Source of the DNA: a virus
Direction: 5' to 3' (one strand)
DNA: 21,918 nt
IMG/VR virus record: IMGVR_UViG_3300020443_000005
Location: 1 to 21,918 of that record
Below the pieces are notes generated by a model, which had not been told where the DNA came from, ran no database searches, and saw only the letters and a program-made list of their open reading frames with translations. The translations under genes and the position numbers were made by a program. This document shows, one piece after another, positions 6,448-19,533 of the stretch; positions within the stretch are counted from its first letter, which is position 1; every line of letters begins with the position of its first letter.

Positions 6448-6888
6448 ATGGCTTATAAGGGAAAATATAAAGTAAAGAATCGCTCAAAATACGTAGGGGC
6501 AGTAGATAATGTTGTGTATCGTTCATCTTGGGAAAGACGTTTTATGGTATATGCAGACACTAATCCCAATGTAGTGAAATGGAATAGTGAAGAACTTGTC
6601 ATCCCATATGTCAGTCCTGTCGATGGGAAAGTTCATCGATACTTTCCTGATTTCTGGATTGAAGTAAAAGGTGAAGGAGGAAAGATTAATCATATGGTAA
6701 TAGAAGTTAAGCCGAAGACACAAGTCGGACCACCAAAGATGGGGAAGACCCCTAAGTCTAAATATCGCTATGCAAAAGCAATGAAGACGTGGAAGGTGAA
6801 TGAAGCGAAGTTTGAAATGGCTAGAGAATTTTGTGATGACAGGAAGTGGCAGTTTAAAATACTAACAGAGGATCATTTAGTAAAGTAA
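6448..6888 (+). CDS. 4: gp4-like head-completion nuclease
   Basis: This is the T4 gp4 (also called gp50) head-completion family, 146 aa here against 150 in T4. The N-terminus MAYKGKYKVKNRSKYVG and V-V-Y-R-S-S-W-E-R (22-30) are characteristic. The protein looks like a TnsA-type PD-(D/E)xK endonuclease: E29, P67-D68, then E86-V-K88 after a beta hairpin. The family acts at the head-tail neck, probably trimming or processing the packaged DNA end before tail joining. It opens the plus-strand late operon and is followed one nucleotide later by the next gene. The ATG lies only six bases past the late box, so a transcript starting at the usual position would have almost no leader, and no normal Shine-Dalgarno site is present. 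Confidence 0.9.
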   Translation: MAYKGKYKVKNRSKYVGAVDNVVYRSSWERRFMVYADTNPNVVKWNSEELVIPYVSPVDGKVHRYFPDFWIEVKGEGGKINHMVIEVKPKTQVGPPKMGKTPKSKYRYAKAMKTWKVNEAKFEMAREFCDDRKWQFKILTEDHLVK

Positions 6889-8396: not shown

Positions 8397-9152
8397 ATGG
8401 CATTACCAAAGTTAGAAACACCGATATATAGTTTAAAATTACCATCGGATAATAAACAGACTGTGTCCTATAGACCATTTCTGGTGAAAGAAGAAAAGAT
8501 TCTTTTGACAGCAATGGAAGGAGCCAAAGCAAAAAAGGGAGATGAGTTTCAGAATGCAGTAAGAGATGTGATTTTAAGAATCATTGCAAACTGTACTGAA
8601 GGAAAGATAGACGGAGCTAAATTACCTGCTTTTGATATTGATTATTTATTCTTAAATATTAGAGCAAAAAGTAGAGGAGAAGTGATTGAACCATCTTTTA
8701 CTTGTAATCAACCAGGGACAGACGGAAAGCCTTGTGGACACGTAGACAAATATTCAATTAAGATTGATGAAATCAAAATTGATTTTCCTGATAAAGATTA
8801 CTCAAAGATAATGGTAAAGGATGATGTTGGAATTCAATTAAAGTTTTTGTCTGCTGAAGAAATGAAAGTTCACGATGGTGAGACTGATAGCATCGAAAAG
8901 ATGTTTAAAATTATCGTTGATTCAATAGATTATGTATTTGATGCCGAGAATATTTATAAAGGTAAAGAAACATCAAAGGCTGAGATGTCCACATTTGTGG
9001 AGGCTATGACAGAAGATGTCTTTGATAAAATCAAAGAATTTTTTGGTAATCAACCAAAATTAAGACACGAGGTTGATTATAAATGTTCAAAATGTGGTCA
9101 TAAAGAACCAGTCCTTCTGGAGGGGCTGGAAGATTTTTTCGGCTTTGCATAA
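8397..9152 (+). CDS. 26: gp26-like baseplate hub assembly protein (zero-frame product of a frameshift pair)
   Basis: The 251-residue protein reads as the T4 gp26 baseplate-hub family (T4 gp26 is 208 aa). Its early part Y-R-P-F-L-V-K-E-E-K-I-L-L-T-A and L-P-A-F-D-I-D-Y-L-F-L-N-I-R-A-K-S-R-G are characteristic. Two Cys pairs, C103/C113-G-H115 and C230-x2-C233-G-H235, look like one zinc site that clamps the fold. The start is the ATG at 8397, with AGGAGA 8-13 nt upstream; an upstream in-frame TTG at 8376 is rejected because it lies before that site. The zero frame ends at 9150-9152, but just before the stop lies T TTT TTC (9134-9140), where a -1 slip would extend the protein with a gp51-like segment to about 309 residues. 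Confidence 0.85.
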   Translation: MALPKLETPIYSLKLPSDNKQTVSYRPFLVKEEKILLTAMEGAKAKKGDEFQNAVRDVILRIIANCTEGKIDGAKLPAFDIDYLFLNIRAKSRGEVIEPSFTCNQPGTDGKPCGHVDKYSIKIDEIKIDFPDKDYSKIMVKDDVGIQLKFLSAEEMKVHDGETDSIEKMFKIIVDSIDYVFDAENIYKGKETSKAEMSTFVEAMTEDVFDKIKEFFGNQPKLRHEVDYKCSKCGHKEPVLLEGLEDFFGFA

Positions 9153-9202
9153 GTCACGATACGTTGGTCAATCATTACAAGACTAACTTCCAGCTTATGC
9201 AA
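9119..9202 (+). promoter_or_regulatory. Candidate programmed -1 ribosomal frameshift signal
   Basis: Three parts are visible in order. GGAGGGG (9119-9125) is a Shine-Dalgarno-like run 8 nt before the slip site, as in bacterial dnaX. T TTT TTC (9134-9140) is a canonical X XXY YYZ heptamer in the gp26 reading frame (GAT TTT TTC). Four bases later begins a perfect 9-bp stem, TTGCATAAG (9145-9153) with CTTATGCAA (9194-9202). The loop of this stem holds a second stem, GTTGGTC (9163-9169) with GACTAAC (9181-9187), including one G-U pair. After a slip, reading resumes at 9140 in the -1 frame and continues to 9325. This frame has no ATG before 9197. Confidence 0.75.
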
Positions 9203-9325
9203 CACCACAATTATAGTTTGGCTGATTTAGAGAATATGCTACCGTATGAAAGGGAGATTTACGTTTCGCTTTTATCGGATTGGCTTCAAGAAGAAAAAGA
9301 CAGACACGAGCAAAATAGAAGATAA
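9140..9325 (+). CDS. 51: gp51-like segment, read by -1 frameshift from gp26
   Basis: This open frame encodes about 61 residues after the slip site, including H-D-T-L-V-N-H-Y-K-T-N-F, Q-H-H-N-Y-S-L-A-D-L-E-N-M-L-P-Y and E-R-E-I-Y-V-S-L-L, then a charged helix ending at TAA 9323-9325. The core (N-Y-S-L-x-x-L-E-N-M-x-P-x-E-R-x-I-Y) is what I know from gp51-like baseplate-hub assembly proteins of marine T4-like phages. T4 gp51 is needed to assemble the hub. As a separate gene it would need a TTG start at 9164 (53 aa) without any Shine-Dalgarno site, or the ATG at 9197, which would cut off the conserved start. The sequence upstream is open and blends into the gp26 frame at the slippery heptamer, so I read it as the C-terminal part of a gp26-gp51 fusion. 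Confidence 0.75.
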   Translation, partial: RLCISHDTLVNHYKTNFQLMQHHNYSLADLENMLPYEREIYVSLLSDWLQEEKDRHEQNRR

Positions 9326-9329
9326 CGGA

Positions 9330-9602
9330 ATGGCAATCCCAGCAAAAAAGAAAGAACCGATAGATGTAAATAGATTTATATTGTTATTGAAACAGACGAA
9401 ATTGGTTCCAGCACCAAAGATTAATGAGGTGAAAACAATAGTTAAAAAAATTAACAAGGGGGCGAGACTCAATGTTAAACAGCAAAAAATTTATGGTGAT
9501 ATAGCAACAAAAGCCTCAATAGATCCATTGACACATAATATGGCTATAACAATGTTAACAAAACAGCATTTGAAAAAAATGAAAGAAAAAGCTGGAAAAT
9601 GA
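9330..9602 (+). CDS. Small conserved basic phage protein (90 aa)
   Basis: No function is known to me. The 90-residue product is rich in Lys and helix-forming: D-V-N-R-F-I-L-L-L-K-Q-T-K near 10-22, then P-K-I-N-E-V-K, then N-V-K-Q-Q-K-I-Y-G-D-I-A-T-K-A-S. Similar small genes sit beside gp26/gp51 in marine T4-like genomes as I remember them. The ATG at 9330 is chosen over an upstream in-frame start at 9246 because the latter would overlap most of the gp51-like frame and add an unlikely basic tail. The Shine-Dalgarno site is weak (AGAAG about 8 nt upstream), so coupling to the gp51 stop at 9325 is likely. Its stop overlaps the next gene as ATGA. Confidence 0.75.
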   Translation: MAIPAKKKEPIDVNRFILLLKQTKLVPAPKINEVKTIVKKINKGARLNVKQQKIYGDIATKASIDPLTHNMAITMLTKQHLKKMKEKAGK

Positions 9603-9964
9603 TTAGTTTAACAGATATAGCCGCGAAAAACTTTAAAAGAATTCGAGAGGATGAAGAATTGTCTGAAGATGTCCCACTCCGAGTAGCCGTTAAGGGCGGA
9701 GGATGTGCTGGTTATGAGTATACTTTAACATTTGGAGAACCAGCAAAGAAAGATTTAATGTTTGAATCAAAAGGACTACCCATAGTGATAGACCGAAAGA
9801 GTCATATAGTAGTAGATGGACTAGAGATAGATTGGTCACAAGACCTATCTGCTCCTGGTCCCCGTTTTGAAAACCCTAGAGCAGTTTCCACGTGTGGTTG
9901 TTCTACGAGTTTTTCAATCAAACCTCCTGAAGATGAGGTTGATAAACCTGTTTGGATGAATTAA
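9599..9964 (+). CDS. IscA/HesB/ErpA-type iron-sulfur cluster carrier
   Basis: The 121-residue protein shows the whole A-type carrier signature: C36 in V-K-G-G-G-C-A-G-Y-E-Y, and C99-G-C101 in S-T-C-G-C-S-T-S-F near the C-terminus. In the family these three Cys bind an iron-sulfur cluster or iron and pass it to client enzymes. The length is normal (about 107-120 aa). The early segment I-S-L-T-D-I-A-A-K-N-F-K matches the family's usual opening helix. It overlaps the preceding gene by 4 nt (ATGA) and ends one base before the probable tape-measure start, so it is co-transcribed with late tail genes. HesB-like genes occur in marine myoviruses; whether this one loads a virion protein or a host enzyme is unknown. 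The last 15 residues are acidic and Pro-rich. Confidence 0.9.
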   Translation: MISLTDIAAKNFKRIREDEELSEDVPLRVAVKGGGCAGYEYTLTFGEPAKKDLMFESKGLPIVIDRKSHIVVDGLEIDWSQDLSAPGPRFENPRAVSTCGCSTSFSIKPPEDEVDKPVWMN

Positions 9965-9965
9965 A

Positions 9966-12900
9966 ATGCCTGCACAATCATCGTTAGAAGGTCTAGCTAA
10001 GTTAATGGCCGCAAAGGCTATGATTGGCGGTGCCGCTGGAAAAATCAAAGATTTCGCTACAGGAGATGCAAGAGCGGAAAAGAGATTGAAGAAGCGGACG
10101 GCCAAAGAGAAACTTGAAAAAGCCAAAAAGAGACTTAAGGAAGAAGACGCGGCCCACGCTGAGTGGTTACGTGAAAACGGAAGTTATATTCAAGCAATAA
10201 AAGATAGAATGTTTAACTCCCGTAAAATTTTGAGTGCAGAGAAACAGGGATGGGCCGACGGAGATAAGAGAAGGGCACAAGAGGCTGCGGACGCAAAACA
10301 AGAAGCCAAGATTAAGAAGGCTGCCTGGATTTCCGGGAAGTCAAGAGGAGAAATGGCTAGCCAGTTAGCCCACGATGATAATGTTGAGCGTGAAAAAGAA
10401 ATGGCAGAAAAGAAAGAACTGCACGAAAGGGAGACTGAACAGAGGCATTCCGCACTTGCACTCCAACTAAAGAAGCAGGCGGAGTTTGCGGACTTAGAGA
10501 AATCTCAAATAATCGATATGATTAAAAGAGATGAACAGGCTAAGGAGTTGAATGAATTAAAAGCTACCGAAATAGCGAATGAGAAACAATACTTAGGTGG
10601 GATGGAGACCGTTAAACCTGACGATCTTCAGGGATCTGATGATCTTTCAGGGGGTGGAGGTAGTGGTGGTGATATAGTAACCAAACTAGACGAACAAACC
10701 TGGGAAATAGAAGAAATTAAAAATATTTTAGGAAAAGGTATATTAATAGATGAAGCAATTCTGAAGAAAGATACAGAACAAGCTAATCTCTTAATACAAG
10801 GTTTAGGATTACATTCGCCCCCCTTCTTAGAAACACTTACAAAGGACGAAGGCTCTCCCTCAATTGTTCCAGAATCTATAGGTGCTGATTCAGCACCAGA
10901 TGTTAGTGCTTCTCCTGACGTTTCTATGGAGACAATGCTGGATGGTGAGCCAATGCCAGTACAGTCTGATCAATTTGAAGAACTTCTTGTAATTGAACGA
11001 GAAGAACTTGATTTTGACAGGCGTAGAGAAGCAAGAGAAATTAAAGAAGCCAGAATGGCATTGGAAGACCGAAGAGACAAAAAAATGTCTAAAGGTAAAA
11101 AACTCGGTTTAGGAGGAAAGAAGCCCGACAAAAAGAAAAAGGATAATAGTAGTTTACTGTCTACTCTTTTCAAGTTTGGAGGTAGATATCTATTGCCTAT
11201 GGTAAGTGGTTGGTTGGGTCTTAAAACTGTTCTTGGACTAAGCACGAAAGCTGATGATGCCGCTAGGGCCGCAAAGGCGGCAAAGAATGCTTCAATGCTC
11301 GCCGATGAGGCCTCTACAATTACAAAAAATATAAGCACAAAAGCTGATGATGTCGGAAGAGCATTAGGTCATACTGATGAAATAGGAAAGGTAGTTACTA
11401 AAGTTGATGATGCCGCTAAAGCTGGATCGAAAAGTGCAAAATTAATTACTGTTGGTGATGATGTTGTCGATGTTGCTACTAAAGCTACAAAATTAGCAGA
11501 CGGTGTTCCTTCTACTAATCTAGGTACAGTTACTGGTAAAGTTGATGAAGCCGCAAAGGGCATCACAAAAGTTACTGGATCCGTTGATGAAGTCGGAAAG
11601 GGAGTAAAAGGAGTAGGTAGTAAATTAGAGACGGTGACAAAGATGATAAAGGGTATTCCTGCCGCAACGTCAAAGGCTGTCGCCGCTGTCAAGACCGTCC
11701 CAGCGGTAACTAAAACGGCTGCCGCTCTGGGAAAAGTCATTCCATCAGGTGCGCCAACACTAAATAAAGGTCCTGTTCCTGTTGGTGGTGCTGATGATGC
11801 AGGCAAAGTTACAAAATTAGTAACCAAGGTTGGTACTGAAGCTATTAAACCTGTAACGGCGACTGTTCAAAAGATAGTGACGGTCACCAAGGGAGCAGGA
11901 AAACTTGCTACTACAGTCGGTAAATATCTCGCTCCTTTAGACCTTATTAATAAAATGGGGCAAGGACAAGGCTTCTGGGAGTCTATTGGTAATATGGGAT
12001 TGGAAATTGGAAATTTAGTCGCTGGTGCTGGTGAATTTCAAGTGGAGCAAATGCAGAAACTATCGAAGATGGCGGGACTGGATTTGGGTGAGGGAGGATT
12101 TAGCGAAAAATCTGCAATGGATATTGCATTTCAAGAGGCCGATATCCTGGGTAATAAAGAGAAATGGCAAACATCTTATCTTGAACAAGGAATTAATAAA
12201 GGTGTTGAAGTGTTCACTGGTCATAAAATTGCTAATAAGAAAGAATATACAGAAGAACAAGAGAAACTAGCATTTGCCGCCGAAAACGATGCTGGTGCAG
12301 TTGATATTGGATTTGGTCAAGGTGAGATTGAAGATTTACAAGCACTTTCCCTATTGGATGAAAAAACTTTAGAGGCTCTTCTCGCATATGAAGTCTTTTC
12401 GGATGACGACCAGAAGCAGATAGAGGACTTGTTAGAAGCAAAGAAGATGGGTCTAAAAGCTACATATGATGATGGTGGCTGGTTGGGAGGAGAAAAAATT
12501 ACTTATGGTCCGGAACAGGGACAGACAGAAGAGCAAAAAGCCTATGCGGCGAGTCTAGATCCGACTAAGCGGCCGGATATGGAAGAATATGTGCCGGAAG
12601 GAGAAGGTATGTTCGCTGGTATGTGGGATAAATTTGCGTCTTTCTTTGAGCATACTCCAGATGTAGCTTCAGCAGATAAAATGGCGCAGACAACCACTAT
12701 AATGGCGGAGCAAGCTACTACTCCAGGTTCTATATTTACTCACGACACTCATTTAGAACAGACATTATGGAACATTTGGGCAGAAGAAAAATCATTTTTT
12801 GATCCTAAAACAATGGGAACTGGAGCAACCGTTACTGAAGGTGACAGTACCGCCCCTACAACCCAATTAACTCCGCTTGATAATCAAGAATTAATGGCGC

Positions 12901-13157
12901 CAGTACCAGTAATTGATGTCTCTCCTAATGCTCCTGCAATGGGAACTGGAGCAATGATACCTAGTGAACTTTTAGCACAAGTAATTTCTCAAATTTCAGC
13001 GATGGAGAAACAAGCGGGTACCGCCCCAGGTGGAGGCGCAACAATGGTAAATACAAACACATCTATAGATAATAGTGTGCGATCAAATAATATGCCGGCT
13101 TCTACTGCTTTTGCTCCAGCATCGGCAATGCCTGCTGGTATCGGTCAAGGAGCGTAA
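9966..13157 (+). CDS. Probable tail tape-measure / gp29-like hub protein (1063 aa)
   Basis: No single motif names this protein; the call comes from size, composition and place. It is the longest gene here and follows the gp26/gp51 frameshift pair, where tailed phages place the tape-measure gene. Residues about 40-215 are a charged coiled-coil rich in K, E and A. Residues about 395-425 are hydrophobic (L-L-S-T-L-F-K-F-G-G-R-Y-L-L-P and on). Residues about 425-620 contain a degenerate repeat around T-K-x-D-D-x-x-K/R. A second glycine-rich hydrophobic stretch lies near 650-690. The C-terminus is Pro/Thr/Asn-rich with N-T-S-I-D-N-S-V. T4 gp29 is 590 aa, so this would specify a longer tail if it acts as the ruler. 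An injected internal virion protein is an alternative. Confidence 0.7.
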   Translation: MPAQSSLEGLAKLMAAKAMIGGAAGKIKDFATGDARAEKRLKKRTAKEKLEKAKKRLKEEDAAHAEWLRENGSYIQAIKDRMFNSRKILSAEKQGWADGDKRRAQEAADAKQEAKIKKAAWISGKSRGEMASQLAHDDNVEREKEMAEKKELHERETEQRHSALALQLKKQAEFADLEKSQIIDMIKRDEQAKELNELKATEIANEKQYLGGMETVKPDDLQGSDDLSGGGGSGGDIVTKLDEQTWEIEEIKNILGKGILIDEAILKKDTEQANLLIQGLGLHSPPFLETLTKDEGSPSIVPESIGADSAPDVSASPDVSMETMLDGEPMPVQSDQFEELLVIEREELDFDRRREAREIKEARMALEDRRDKKMSKGKKLGLGGKKPDKKKKDNSSLLSTLFKFGGRYLLPMVSGWLGLKTVLGLSTKADDAARAAKAAKNASMLADEASTITKNISTKADDVGRALGHTDEIGKVVTKVDDAAKAGSKSAKLITVGDDVVDVATKATKLADGVPSTNLGTVTGKVDEAAKGITKVTGSVDEVGKGVKGVGSKLETVTKMIKGIPAATSKAVAAVKTVPAVTKTAAALGKVIPSGAPTLNKGPVPVGGADDAGKVTKLVTKVGTEAIKPVTATVQKIVTVTKGAGKLATTVGKYLAPLDLINKMGQGQGFWESIGNMGLEIGNLVAGAGEFQVEQMQKLSKMAGLDLGEGGFSEKSAMDIAFQEADILGNKEKWQTSYLEQGINKGVEVFTGHKIANKKEYTEEQEKLAFAAENDAGAVDIGFGQGEIEDLQALSLLDEKTLEALLAYEVFSDDDQKQIEDLLEAKKMGLKATYDDGGWLGGEKITYGPEQGQTEEQKAYAASLDPTKRPDMEEYVPEGEGMFAGMWDKFASFFEHTPDVASADKMAQTTTIMAEQATTPGSIFTHDTHLEQTLWNIWAEEKSFFDPKTMGTGATVTEGDSTAPTTQLTPLDNQELMAPVPVIDVSPNAPAMGTGAMIPSELLAQVISQISAMEKQAGTAPGGGATMVNTNTSIDNSVRSNNMPASTAFAPASAMPAGIGQGA

Positions 13158-15982: not shown

Positions 15983-16012
15983 ATTGTAACACGATTTGAG
16001 GGTAAATGTCAA
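15983..16012 (-). promoter_or_regulatory. Sigma70-type early promoter for the tRNA/small-gene operon
   Basis: On the minus strand: TTGACA (16007-16012), 18-bp spacer, TACAAT (15983-15988). The -35 is perfect and the -10 is one base off consensus. The -35 overlaps the last codons of the halogenase gene. It would drive the 26-residue gene, tRNA-Tyr, tRNA-Ile and the small genes down to 14319. Confidence 0.8.
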
Positions 16013-17706
16013 GCGTTTTTGTGAATGCTATCTTTTGAATATTGATAGGGACTTGGAAAATCTTTGATTTCTTCATTCCACATCCTTTTTCTTTCTTCAG
16101 TATGTTGTATAAACTTTTCAGTCCATTCTTTAACTAACTGGGAGTATTCTAACTTTTTCCCGTTGCTGTCAAGAACATAAGAGAAAAAGTCGGCTTTATT
16201 ATCTTTTTGATTGTCCAGTAATGGTTCTAATTTATCTATAGGGTACCAATTCATACCAGCCGCTACGGCGTGAATACCAGCTCCCGTAAGATCAATCTGA
16301 AAGTTTTTGCTAACGTATTCACGATGAAAACCTTTAGAAATTCCAGTTGAAATATTGGTAAACATATCTTCGGGATAATCTCGGTTTAGAATGTCTCTCC
16401 AATATTCTGTATCATCTCTGTGAGAAAGTACGTAGGTAAATGCAACAACGTGGGCACATTCATAAAAATCATCGTGACATTTAGCAGTATACTCTCTCCT
16501 ATCCCATTCACTTATACGACCTCTTTTTAATGTTTTAACCAAATTAAATAGAAATTGATATATACTCTGTAATCCATTAGATTGTAATGGTTCTATAAAC
16601 CCAGCAGATAATCCAATTGCTAAAGTATTTTTAACCCACAATTTCGATTGAACACCACACCTCATTGGAATTAAATGATAATCTAAATCTTCGACATTTT
16701 CATAGCCCTTTTTTAGTAGATTGTATTTAAATTCTCGTAATGCGGCGTCCGTTGAAATAAACTTATCTGAAAATACATATCCTGAGCCCATTCTAGACCA
16801 TAACGGGATTTCCCATATCCAACCATTTTCAATCGCAGTACAATTTGTATAATTTACAATTTGTGTTTCTGGATCTGTATAAGGTATTTTAGTCGCCCAG
16901 GCATAATTGTTTGGAATGATATCTGATATGGGTATAAATGGAACTTCAAAGGCTTTAGTCAATAATAAAGATTTGAATCCAGTACAGTCTATAAACAAAT
17001 CTGCTTCTAGTTTTTGACCATTGTCCAATACAAGATATTTAATTCCATCTTCATCCAAAGGAATTTCTTTTACTTCTGCCTGAATATGAGTGAATCTATC
17101 AGCATACTTAGCCTTACAATAATTGTCCCTTAACCATATTCCAAATTTAGTAGCATCAAATTGATAAGCCCATCCGAACCTCCCATCATTTCTATTTTTT
17201 GGGTCTGACAGGTCAATTGAATGAAGTGCTTTATTTTGATTTACTAAAGCCATTACTGGCCAAAAAGTATCAGCAAAATCACTTGCTGGAGTTTCAGGAT
17301 AAAATAATTTTTTGTGTTGCCAGTCAAATGCTGTATACGGCATTTGAGAAGAGTTTTCATACTCTGTTGATTGTTTAGATAAAGTCGGCGTACCAAATGG
17401 ATAATGAAAATGACCTGAATCTTCACGATACCAATTTTCAAATCTAATACTTAGTTTATGGATGGCATCACAATGGTGCATCCAATCAGAGTCTTTGATC
17501 TCTAGCAATTTTAACCAGGCTCCTATACCATTAAAACCACTTTGTTCGCCAGAGACCGTGCTTTCTCCTACTCCAATAGTAGGATGATTAGGAGATTCTA
17601 CAACTGTGATCTGTTTGTCGGGAAATTGATTTAATAATATAGTTGCAGACATCCATCCAGCTGATCCTCCACCCACTATTGTAATATTTTTTGTTTCCAT
17701 AATCAT
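16009..17706 (-). CDS. Flavin-dependent (tryptophan-type) halogenase
   Basis: The 565-residue enzyme has the marks of the flavin-dependent halogenase family, which uses FADH2, O2 and a halide to make hypohalous acid that halogenates an electron-rich substrate. Visible: dinucleotide-binding G-G-G-S-A-G-W (12-18); G-V-G-E-S-T (45-50); the catalytic Lys in H-K-L-S-I-R-F (K84, equivalent to PrnA K79); the family motif W-I-W-E-I-P (296-301), which keeps the flavin site from acting as a monooxygenase; and F-I-E-P-L-Q-S-N-G-L with E372, equivalent to the PrnA glutamate that orients the substrate. All key residues are present, so it should be active. A related cyanophage halogenase (VirX1) has been characterised and iodinates varied substrates. 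The start at 17706 (or the ATG at 17700) lies just after the tRNA-Asp CCA; no Shine-Dalgarno site is seen. Confidence 0.93.
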   Translation of the reverse strand: MIMETKNITIVGGGSAGWMSATILLNQFPDKQITVVESPNHPTIGVGESTVSGEQSGFNGIGAWLKLLEIKDSDWMHHCDAIHKLSIRFENWYREDSGHFHYPFGTPTLSKQSTEYENSSQMPYTAFDWQHKKLFYPETPASDFADTFWPVMALVNQNKALHSIDLSDPKNRNDGRFGWAYQFDATKFGIWLRDNYCKAKYADRFTHIQAEVKEIPLDEDGIKYLVLDNGQKLEADLFIDCTGFKSLLLTKAFEVPFIPISDIIPNNYAWATKIPYTDPETQIVNYTNCTAIENGWIWEIPLWSRMGSGYVFSDKFISTDAALREFKYNLLKKGYENVEDLDYHLIPMRCGVQSKLWVKNTLAIGLSAGFIEPLQSNGLQSIYQFLFNLVKTLKRGRISEWDRREYTAKCHDDFYECAHVVAFTYVLSHRDDTEYWRDILNRDYPEDMFTNISTGISKGFHREYVSKNFQIDLTGAGIHAVAAGMNWYPIDKLEPLLDNQKDNKADFFSYVLDSNGKKLEYSQLVKEWTEKFIQHTEERKRMWNEEIKDFPSPYQYSKDSIHKNA

Positions 17707-17958: not shown

Positions 17959-18768
17959 TTACAGAAAAAATACTTGATTTATCCTATTATAATCTGTGAA
18001 CATTCCAAGGTCTATATCTGCTTTATGAAGAACATCGGACTGATATAAGACCATTCTATTATACACCATATCAGCCTCAAATTCAACAGTATATTGTTTG
18101 TTAATTTTGTCTTTAATATTTTTAAACTGTTGCTCTTCAGACATAGAAGTTAATACAGGCCCCTTGATATCATATGTTTCACACATATTTTGCCTCCACA
18201 ATTCTACTCTATTTGGAGGGATACTCATTTCACCGTTATAACTATATAAATTTGTTCCTCCGGCACATTCGTCCGGAGTATTTAAATAAACTACACTCCC
18301 AAATTGATATGTGGAAGCTGTCTCACCATTCCAATAATCTTGATGAGGTATTTCAGCTAAAGGATTCTTTTTTATAAAAGAATCATTAGTACAGTTGACC
18401 ATAAACCCTTGATTGTCCCAATTTCTGTTAAATTCGTCAATATCAAATGGTCTATTTTTTATACGTAATGGAATTCTAAAACTCCCATCTTCCAGTAATT
18501 GTGTTTTTTGAACTTTTGGTTTCCATAGTTTATTATCACATAGGTCTAAATATAGATTATATAATTTTTCCTTTACTTCGGGAGTACCTAAAGATGCTCT
18601 AATTCCAGGAAATCCTCCTTTTAATGCCTTGTCATCACCATACTTTAAAGATTTGGCAAGTTCTCTAACTTCATCAGGATCCCTATAGAAATCATCAACA
18701 ATGATGGCTGATCTTCTTTTAATATCTTTAAATGCTACAACCTTAGCATCTCCATTTAATTCAAACAT
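17959..18768 (-). CDS. Fe(II)/2-oxoglutarate oxygenase-like protein, copy 2 (269 aa)
   Basis: The second of two tandem paralogs. It starts M-F-E-L-N-G-D-A-K-V, then I-I-V-D-D-F-Y-R-D-P-D-E-V-R (22-35) and G-G-F-P-G-I-R-A (51-58). This opening resembles small proteins (DUF6445-like, as I recall) encoded beside bacterial tryptophan halogenases. The candidate metal and cosubstrate residues of a double-stranded beta-helix oxygenase are in the right order: H142-Q-D144 (I-P-H-Q-D-Y-W), distal H248 (Q-S-D-V-L-H) and R262. It differs from copy 1 mainly by about 22 extra residues near 84-105. It follows copy 1 after three bases, without its own ribosome-binding site, so it is coupled. The substrate is unknown. 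A P4H-like hydroxylase or a chaperone-like partner of the halogenase are both possible. Confidence 0.8.
   Translation of the reverse strand: MFELNGDAKVVAFKDIKRRSAIIVDDFYRDPDEVRELAKSLKYGDDKALKGGFPGIRASLGTPEVKEKLYNLYLDLCDNKLWKPKVQKTQLLEDGSFRIPLRIKNRPFDIDEFNRNWDNQGFMVNCTNDSFIKKNPLAEIPHQDYWNGETASTYQFGSVVYLNTPDECAGGTNLYSYNGEMSIPPNRVELWRQNMCETYDIKGPVLTSMSEEQQFKNIKDKINKQYTVEFEADMVYNRMVLYQSDVLHKADIDLGMFTDYNRINQVFFL
18225..18267. repeat. Identical 43-nt block shared with 19044-19086
   Basis: Inside the oxygenase-like paralogs, 43 consecutive bases here equal those at 19044-19086, although the proteins differ over much of their length. A second block of 49 identical bases is at 18520-18568 and 19279-19327. 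Confidence 0.9.
18520..18568. repeat. Identical 49-nt block shared with 19279-19327
   Basis: Forty-nine consecutive bases encoding L-Y-N-L-Y-L-D-L-C-D-N-K-L-W are identical in the two tandem genes, including third codon positions. This points to recent duplication or continuing gene conversion between the copies. Confidence 0.9.
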
Positions 18769-18771
18769 CTG

Positions 18772-19533
18772 TTACATAAAAAGGATTTGAACAAGCCGAT
18801 GTGCATTTGTAAACATACCAATGTCTACTTCCATACTATGAAGAACATCTGCTTGATATAAGAACATTCTATTATATTTCATTTCAGCTTCAAATTCAGT
18901 TTTATATAGGGTGTCTCCATCAAGTATGTCTTTAAGGTATTTAAACTTTTTTTCTTCTGACATAGAGGTTAATACCGGTCCCTTAATATCAACAATATCA
19001 GCGTGTCTTTGTAACCACTCTGGTTTCTTTTTTGGAGAAATAGTCATTTCACCGTTATAACTATATAAATTTGTTCCTCCGGCACACTCCTCTGGAGTAT
19101 TTAAATAAATTACACTTCCAAATTGGAGTTTCGGATTTTCGCTAGGCAAATCCTCCCAATAATCTTGATGGGGTATCATACCAAAAAAATTCTGTTTTAA
19201 AAAAGTATCATTAGTAGCATTGACCATAAATCCTTGTATATCCCAATTACTATTAAAGGCTTCAAGATTAAAAGGTCTTTTCCATAGTTTATTATCACAT
19301 AGGTCTAAATATAGATTATATAATTTTCCTTTTACTTCAGGAATCCTGAAATGCGAACTGCTTCTAATTCCAGGAAATCCTCCTTTCGCGGCTTCCCCAT
19401 CTCCATACTTTAAAGATAAAGCAAGTTCTCTAACTTCATCTGGATCCTTATAGACATCATCTACAATGATAGCGGATCGTCCATTAATATCTTTGAATGC
19501 TGTAACTTTTGCATCTCCATTAAGTTCAAACAC
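18772..19533 (-). CDS. Fe(II)/2-oxoglutarate oxygenase-like protein, copy 1 (253 aa)
   Basis: First of the tandem pair and shorter than copy 2. It shares the opening (M-F-E-L-N-G-D-A-K-V, then A-I-I-V-D-D-V-Y-K-D-P-D-E-V-R) and keeps the putative iron and cosubstrate set: H122-Q-D124 in I-P-H-Q-D-Y-W, H232 in Q-A-D-V-L-H, and R246. The region Y-L-N-T-P-E-E-C-A-G-G-T-N-L-Y (143-157) is a typical strand before the distal half of the fold. The start is a GTG at 19533 that shares its first base with the preceding stop (TAGTG), with CAGGGA upstream as ribosome-binding site, so it is translationally coupled to the 101-residue gene. Both copies appear intact, so they may act on different substrates or as a heterodimer. 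Confidence 0.8.
   Translation of the reverse strand: MFELNGDAKVTAFKDINGRSAIIVDDVYKDPDEVRELALSLKYGDGEAAKGGFPGIRSSSHFRIPEVKGKLYNLYLDLCDNKLWKRPFNLEAFNSNWDIQGFMVNATNDTFLKQNFFGMIPHQDYWEDLPSENPKLQFGSVIYLNTPEECAGGTNLYSYNGEMTISPKKKPEWLQRHADIVDIKGPVLTSMSEEKKFKYLKDILDGDTLYKTEFEAEMKYNRMFLYQADVLHSMEVDIGMFTNAHRLVQILFM

Follow-up and report, generated by a model that had tools for sequence, protein, structure and literature searches.

The window, a stretch of 21,918 nt of viral DNA, very probably belongs to an uncultured marine T4-like phage with a programmed −1 ribosomal frameshift in its tail assembly chaperone gene, as judged from the sequence and its relatives. Positions 8397-9152 on the plus strand encode a gp26-type short tail assembly chaperone (TAC-N) of 251 amino acids that ends at a TAA codon (9150-9152). 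The 3' end of this gene reads ...CTG GAG GGG CTG GAA GAT TTT TTC GGC TTT GCA TAA and contains the slippery heptamer T TTT TTC (9134-9140, plus strand), which has the form X XXY YYZ in the gp26 frame; the stop codon ends 12 nt further on. The −1 frame has no stop codon between 9104 and 9322, closing with TAA at 9323-9325, and the heptamer lies, in the zero frame, within the overlap of the two frames. After the shift, the −1 frame (gp51, or TAC-C; 9140-9325, plus strand) would add 61 residues (RLCISHDTLVNHYKTNFQLMQHHNYSLADLENMLPYEREIYVSLLSDWLQEEKDRHEQNRR), and the conceptual long form, TAC-NC, has a full length of 309 amino acids. In PHROGs this segment corresponds to phrog_634, 'baseplate hub assembly catalyst' (E 2.2e-26), with a second match to the end of phrog_150; no Pfam family matched it above the cut-off.

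The initial annotation placed gp51 in the −1 register relative to gp26, and this is borne out in the window and in all 138 distinct loci with which it was compared. The comparison started from 160 IMG/VR loci, three phage records and the window, and 138 distinct sequences were left once identical regions had been merged and both L004, a copy of the window, and the locus of T4 had been set aside. Three of the 138 are truncated by a contig end (L110, L113 and L135). In the starting set, one locus, L090, has no gp51 match, its sequence stopping one base past the gp26 match. Without exception, gp51 lies in the −1 frame in these 138 sequences, and the 3' end of gp26 carries T TTT TTN in the zero frame. 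The gp51 query begins inside the heptamer codons, so the set found with it depends in part on the heptamer; 72 of the 138 loci first came to light through gp26 similarity only, independently of that query. The set is diverse, with 60 of its gp26 proteins falling into 23 single-linkage clusters at 50% identity. A single contig could not by itself exclude that the two frames reflect a sequencing or assembly error or a decayed gene, but the recurrence of the same −1 layout in 138 of 138 loci, from independent contigs and isolates, refutes this explanation, and we regard its probability as negligible.

The heptamer is more strictly kept than its coding role alone would suggest when other Phe-Phe dipeptides of the same loci are considered, only 86 of 736 of which are written as T TTT TTN. 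At the end of gp26, TTTTTTC occurs in 100 loci, TTTTTTT in 31 and TTTTTTA in 7, and nucleotide entropy is zero at heptamer positions one to six. The codon before TTT always ends in T (GAT 53, AGT 52, TCT 16, GCT 8, AAT 8, GGT 1), while the residue that it encodes ahead of the two phenylalanines varies among D, S, A, N and G. Codon periodicity follows the gp26 frame before the heptamer and the −1 frame after it, and in none of the 138 does the third frame stay open for 50 codons. The gp26 stop codon ends 3, 6, 12 or 27 nt 3' of the heptamer. Among named single-gene phages, all 13 carry T TTT TTC or, in Rhizobium I9, T TTT TTG, and loci L181-L183 agree. Loss of the heptamer in relatives, which had been named as evidence against a frameshift, was thus never seen among those with a single gene.

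Upstream of the heptamer, the window has an internal Shine-Dalgarno-like motif, GGAGGGG (9119-9125, plus strand; 8 nt ahead of the heptamer), which we suspect acts as a 5' stimulator of frameshifting. A Shine-Dalgarno core, defined as AGGA, GGAG or GAGG and scored 5-18 nt upstream (−18 to −5), precedes the heptamer in 101 of the 138 relatives, as compared with 766 of 9729 control positions. These cores are concentrated 12-15 nt 5' of the heptamer. A Glu-Gly pair just upstream of the heptamer is found in 88 of the 138 loci, and 66 of these 88 use GAG for the glutamate; elsewhere in gp26, GAA outnumbers GAG by 2157 to 788.

A hairpin at 9145-9202 (plus strand) could serve as a 3' stimulator in the window. 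Its 9-bp stem pairs TTGCATAAG (9145-9153) with CTTATGCAA (9194-9202), begins 4 nt 3' of the heptamer and encloses an inner stem of 7 bp with one G-U wobble; the coordinates first reported for both arms, for GGAGGGG and for TTTTTTC all agree with the sequence. The predicted folding energy of the 75 nt 3' of the heptamer is −21.5 kcal/mol, whereas shuffles average −8.3 (z −5.43), and none of 200 shuffles equalled it. In a clade of 28 sequences that includes the window, and that was picked through a pattern in the hairpin's 5' arm, the main stem is 97.8% paired, and the inner stem only 82%. In four sequences of this clade both sides of one stem pair have changed, from A-U to G-C, and in one sequence a different pair has gone from U-A to C-G. 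Tested against shuffles, the pairs with a two-sided change were no better (267/500), whereas the cells with a two-sided change were better (1/500).

Downstream structure is therefore found in the window and its clade of 28 sequences, but it is not general. A downstream fold with z below −2 occurs in 58 of the 138 loci, compared with 5.1% of 414 control stretches, and the remaining 80 loci have no such fold. Because no hairpin is predicted in many other loci, we consider the hairpin a putative clade-specific helper that is outside the core of the signal. The alignment of related phages that the initial annotation called for thus gave a divided answer: the heptamer and the −1 register are kept throughout, and the stem is kept only in some clades. 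Rfam had a single match, below threshold and on the opposite strand, which we took to be due to chance.

The T run itself raises another possibility, that transcriptional slippage adds a base, so that some of the mRNA would encode the fusion without any ribosomal frameshift. The run has six T (seven in 31 of the 138 loci), and one extra U would lead into the same reading frame. We think this very improbable. The run is short, and the X XXY YYZ phase is found in 138 of 138 loci, whereas the other T6 of gp26 (9039-9044) is out of that phase. Slippage would also leave unexplained the Shine-Dalgarno-like motif at its fixed spacing and the hairpin, both of which point to the ribosome.

An internal start is the other way in which gp51 could be made, as a separate small protein that begins at the ATG at 9196 or at a stop-start overlap, with the heptamer being incidental. 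An in-frame ATG lies at most 90 nt from the slip site in 134 of the 138 loci, and a separate gp51 start is annotated in several public records; in those of P-TIM40 and Syn33, gp51 begins at the ATG equivalent to the one in the window (9196-9198, plus strand, within the 3' arm of the stem). The initial annotation stated that the gp51 frame has no usable start codon. This ATG is present in the −1 frame, so the statement goes too far, but the ATG has no ribosome-binding site. A Shine-Dalgarno match of at least 4 nt precedes the first −1-frame ATG in none of 134 loci, as compared with 104 of the 137 gp26 starts that were scored. When any −1-frame start codon near the junction is allowed, such a match is found in one locus, and 137 of the 138 have no Shine-Dalgarno-matched start there; relatives with gp51 on an independent start and ribosome-binding site, the other observation that had been proposed to count against the frameshift, thus amount to a single case. 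Conservation of the −1 frame extends upstream of the internal ATG as far as the heptamer, and in T4 gp51 the same segment is fused to a gp26-like domain. We consider a separate gp51 start to be most unlikely on these grounds, and continue to favor the frameshift.

Stop-start overlaps (TAATG or TGATG) between the gp26 stop and an ATG of the gp51 frame, which would also suit a separate start, do exist in relatives from Vibrio, Rhizobium and S-CRM01. They were seen in Vibrio nt-1, D480, L182, L183, Rhizobium I9, L181 and S-CRM01. The overlap lies just 3' of the conserved heptamer in L167, L173, L170, L175 and L181-L183. Judging by these sequences, reinitiation might be a second route to gp51 in the lineages concerned. 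It is ruled out in the window, where no overlapping ATG follows the gp26 TAA (9150-9152).

The identity of gp26 as a chaperone was approached by sequence and by fold. The protein belongs to PF12322 (E 1.6e-59) in Pfam and to phrog_150 (E 3.2e-64) in PHROGs, and its AlphaFold model has a pLDDT of 93. Residues 1-93 of the model align with the HK97 tail assembly chaperone (2ob9) over 89 residues with a VIA-align Z of 8.0, which is at the edge of the distinctive range of the tool, and an rmsd of 3.7, the next match having a Z of 4.7. The two proteins differ considerably, with 6% sequence identity and a solved chain of 107 residues in HK97 against 251 in gp26. Foldseek returned nothing for the gp26 model in the PDB at E ≤ 0.001, and a sequence search of the PDB turned up nothing convincing for either gp26 (best E 0.11) or T4 gp51. 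A model of T4-type gp51 matched T4-type baseplate hub proteins in a viral library; in the PDB it matched only weak, unrelated entries (top Z 5.0), with no tail assembly chaperone among them, a result that excludes nothing. The predicted fold of the gp26 N-terminus gives moderate backing to a chaperone identity, independently of the frameshift argument.

T4 itself offers a comparison in which the two products are separately encoded. Its gp26 (208 amino acids) consists of PF12322 alone, and in its gp51 (249 amino acids) PF12322 covers residues 1-201 and precedes a homologue of the window's −1 segment; the identity between that segment and the C-terminus of T4 gp51 is 32%. A two-sequence blastp comparison of T4 gp51 with the conceptual fusion from the window gives an alignment that spans the junction (123 columns, 26%, E 3e-7). 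The locus thus has a short form and a C-terminally extended long form, as expected of tail assembly chaperones, and T4 gp51 has the same architecture in one open reading frame. Given that T4 gp51 combines PF12322 with a window-like tail and that the fusion aligns across the junction, T4 gp26 and gp51 are, by sequence homology, the short and long forms carried on two divergent genes. T4 differs from the window in having these two genes and in the absence of the heptamer. The link between T4-type hub chaperones and tail chaperones that the initial annotation drew is supported by this alignment and by the HK97-like fold, and is not new.

The loss of the slippery site extends to other two-gene phages. 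An in-frame heptamer at the 3' end of gp26 was found in none of 15 of them (six named records and nine IMG/VR loci; a tenth locus, L186, could not be judged). The Phe-Phe pair is kept in 8 of the 15; in 7 it is written TTC TTT (T4, L184, L185, L187, L188, L192 and L193), several of these being close to T4, and PspYZU05 has GAA TTT TTT, which is outside the slippery phase. In T4, the 3' end of gp26 reads GAG TTC TTT GAG where frameshifting relatives have T TTT TTN. These phages amount to a natural experiment, in that none of those examined that encode the two forms separately has the slippery site. The frameshift arrangement is present in Vibrio nt-1 and Aeromonas AS-zj, which belong by record taxonomy to the Straboviridae, the family of T4, and because these two still have the frameshift, the split into two genes probably took place within that family.

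From the perspective of evolution, we can sketch a fuller history, to which we give about even chances. The ancestor of T4 would have had a frameshifting single gene, and once it had been duplicated within the T4 family, the slippery site of the short gene would have disappeared, often through a synonymous change to TTC TTT. In the same scenario, different hairpins would have evolved in different clades, and in at least some of these hairpins the conserved LMQ coding stretch doubles as the 3' arm.

The initial proposal that gp26 and a gp26-gp51 fusion arise by −1 frameshifting finds support in the conservation of the heptamer, of the register, of the Shine-Dalgarno-like motif and, to some extent, of the structure downstream. 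In this scheme, most ribosomes would read gp26 to its stop codon and produce TAC-N, and a minority would slip back by one base on T TTT TTC, aided by the upstream GGAGGGG and, in the clade of the window, by the hairpin. The slipped ribosomes would then read the −1 frame to 9325 and produce TAC-NC. By analogy with lambda G/GT, many copies of TAC-N and few of TAC-NC may form a coat on the tape measure protein, and TAC-NC may recruit tail tube subunits through its C-terminal part. We infer the slip, its rate and the role in assembly from the sequence and from this analogy. Lambda G/GT resembles the window in having a short protein and a long −1 product from overlapping frames, and the lambda pair adjoins the tape measure gene. 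The likeness drawn here is one of scheme, and gp26 has extra domains beyond the 93-residue N-terminal part with the chaperone-like fold. The slippery heptamer of lambda also differs from T TTT TTC.

A frameshift scheme in T4-like phages has been known since 2022, according to the papers that cite it, and the window is a further example. Vladimirov, Gautam and Davidson (2022, Virology 566:9-15) are cited for the T4-like chaperone scheme in PMC10885494 and PMC12846349. The PRFect paper cites them for separate short and long chaperone genes in some T4-like phages (PMC10885494), and the Adele paper for poly-T frameshift signals in T4-like TAC-N genes (PMC12846349). As portrayed there, the 2022 systems share with the window a gp26-type TAC-N and, in some groups, a poly-T −1 frameshift that leads to TAC-NC, and T4 has one short and one long gene. 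In its passage on the subject, a 2016 review describes G-T frameshifting as widespread in long-tailed phages 'except T4' (PMC5009743). The chaperone locus of Vandenendeviridae and Andersonviridae, as described in PMC12846349, is similar to that of the window in that the 3' end of TAC-N carries a poly-T motif with a conserved −1 frameshift, and differs in the motif (GTTTTT) and in the phage families concerned. What sets the window apart from the T4-like systems as cited from 2022 is its origin in an uncultured marine phage; the Shine-Dalgarno-like motif and the clade-specific hairpin were measured here. Among the open papers listed by literature searches on this scheme in cyanophages, none has a title or listed abstract that describes frameshifting of gp26/gp51. 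The Shine-Dalgarno-like motif, the clade-specific hairpins and the loss of the heptamer in two-gene phages may be new relative to the 2022 work.

This large marine set supports regarding gp26 and gp51, the T4-type 'baseplate hub' proteins, as tail assembly chaperones, one short and one long, which in many relatives both come from one frameshifting gene. Several public records of 'gp51' (baseplate hub assembly catalyst) are truncated and mis-started; a −1 extension of gp26 is the better interpretation of them.

Further along the window, an open reading frame of 1063 amino acids (9966-13157, plus strand) is a candidate tape measure by position and size. No homologue was found in Pfam above the cut-off, in PHROGs or in 50,697 phage records. 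Two small open reading frames (9330-9602 and 9599-9964) separate it from the chaperone gene; from position alone, it is plausible that the chaperone gene lies ahead of the tape measure. The second of the two (plus strand), between the chaperone and the long frame, encodes an A-type iron-sulphur carrier (PF01521, E 2e-11; phrog_17776). Upstream of gp26, 6448-6888 (plus strand) encodes a head-closure gp4-type protein (phrog_218) with a match to a TnsA-like endonuclease N-terminal domain (PF08722, E 2e-25). At the other end of the window, a large open reading frame (16009-17706) appears by eye to be tryptophan halogenase-like, and beside it lie two adjacent minus-strand frames (17959-18768 and 18772-19533), whose translations look similar by eye, which suggests a tandem duplication.
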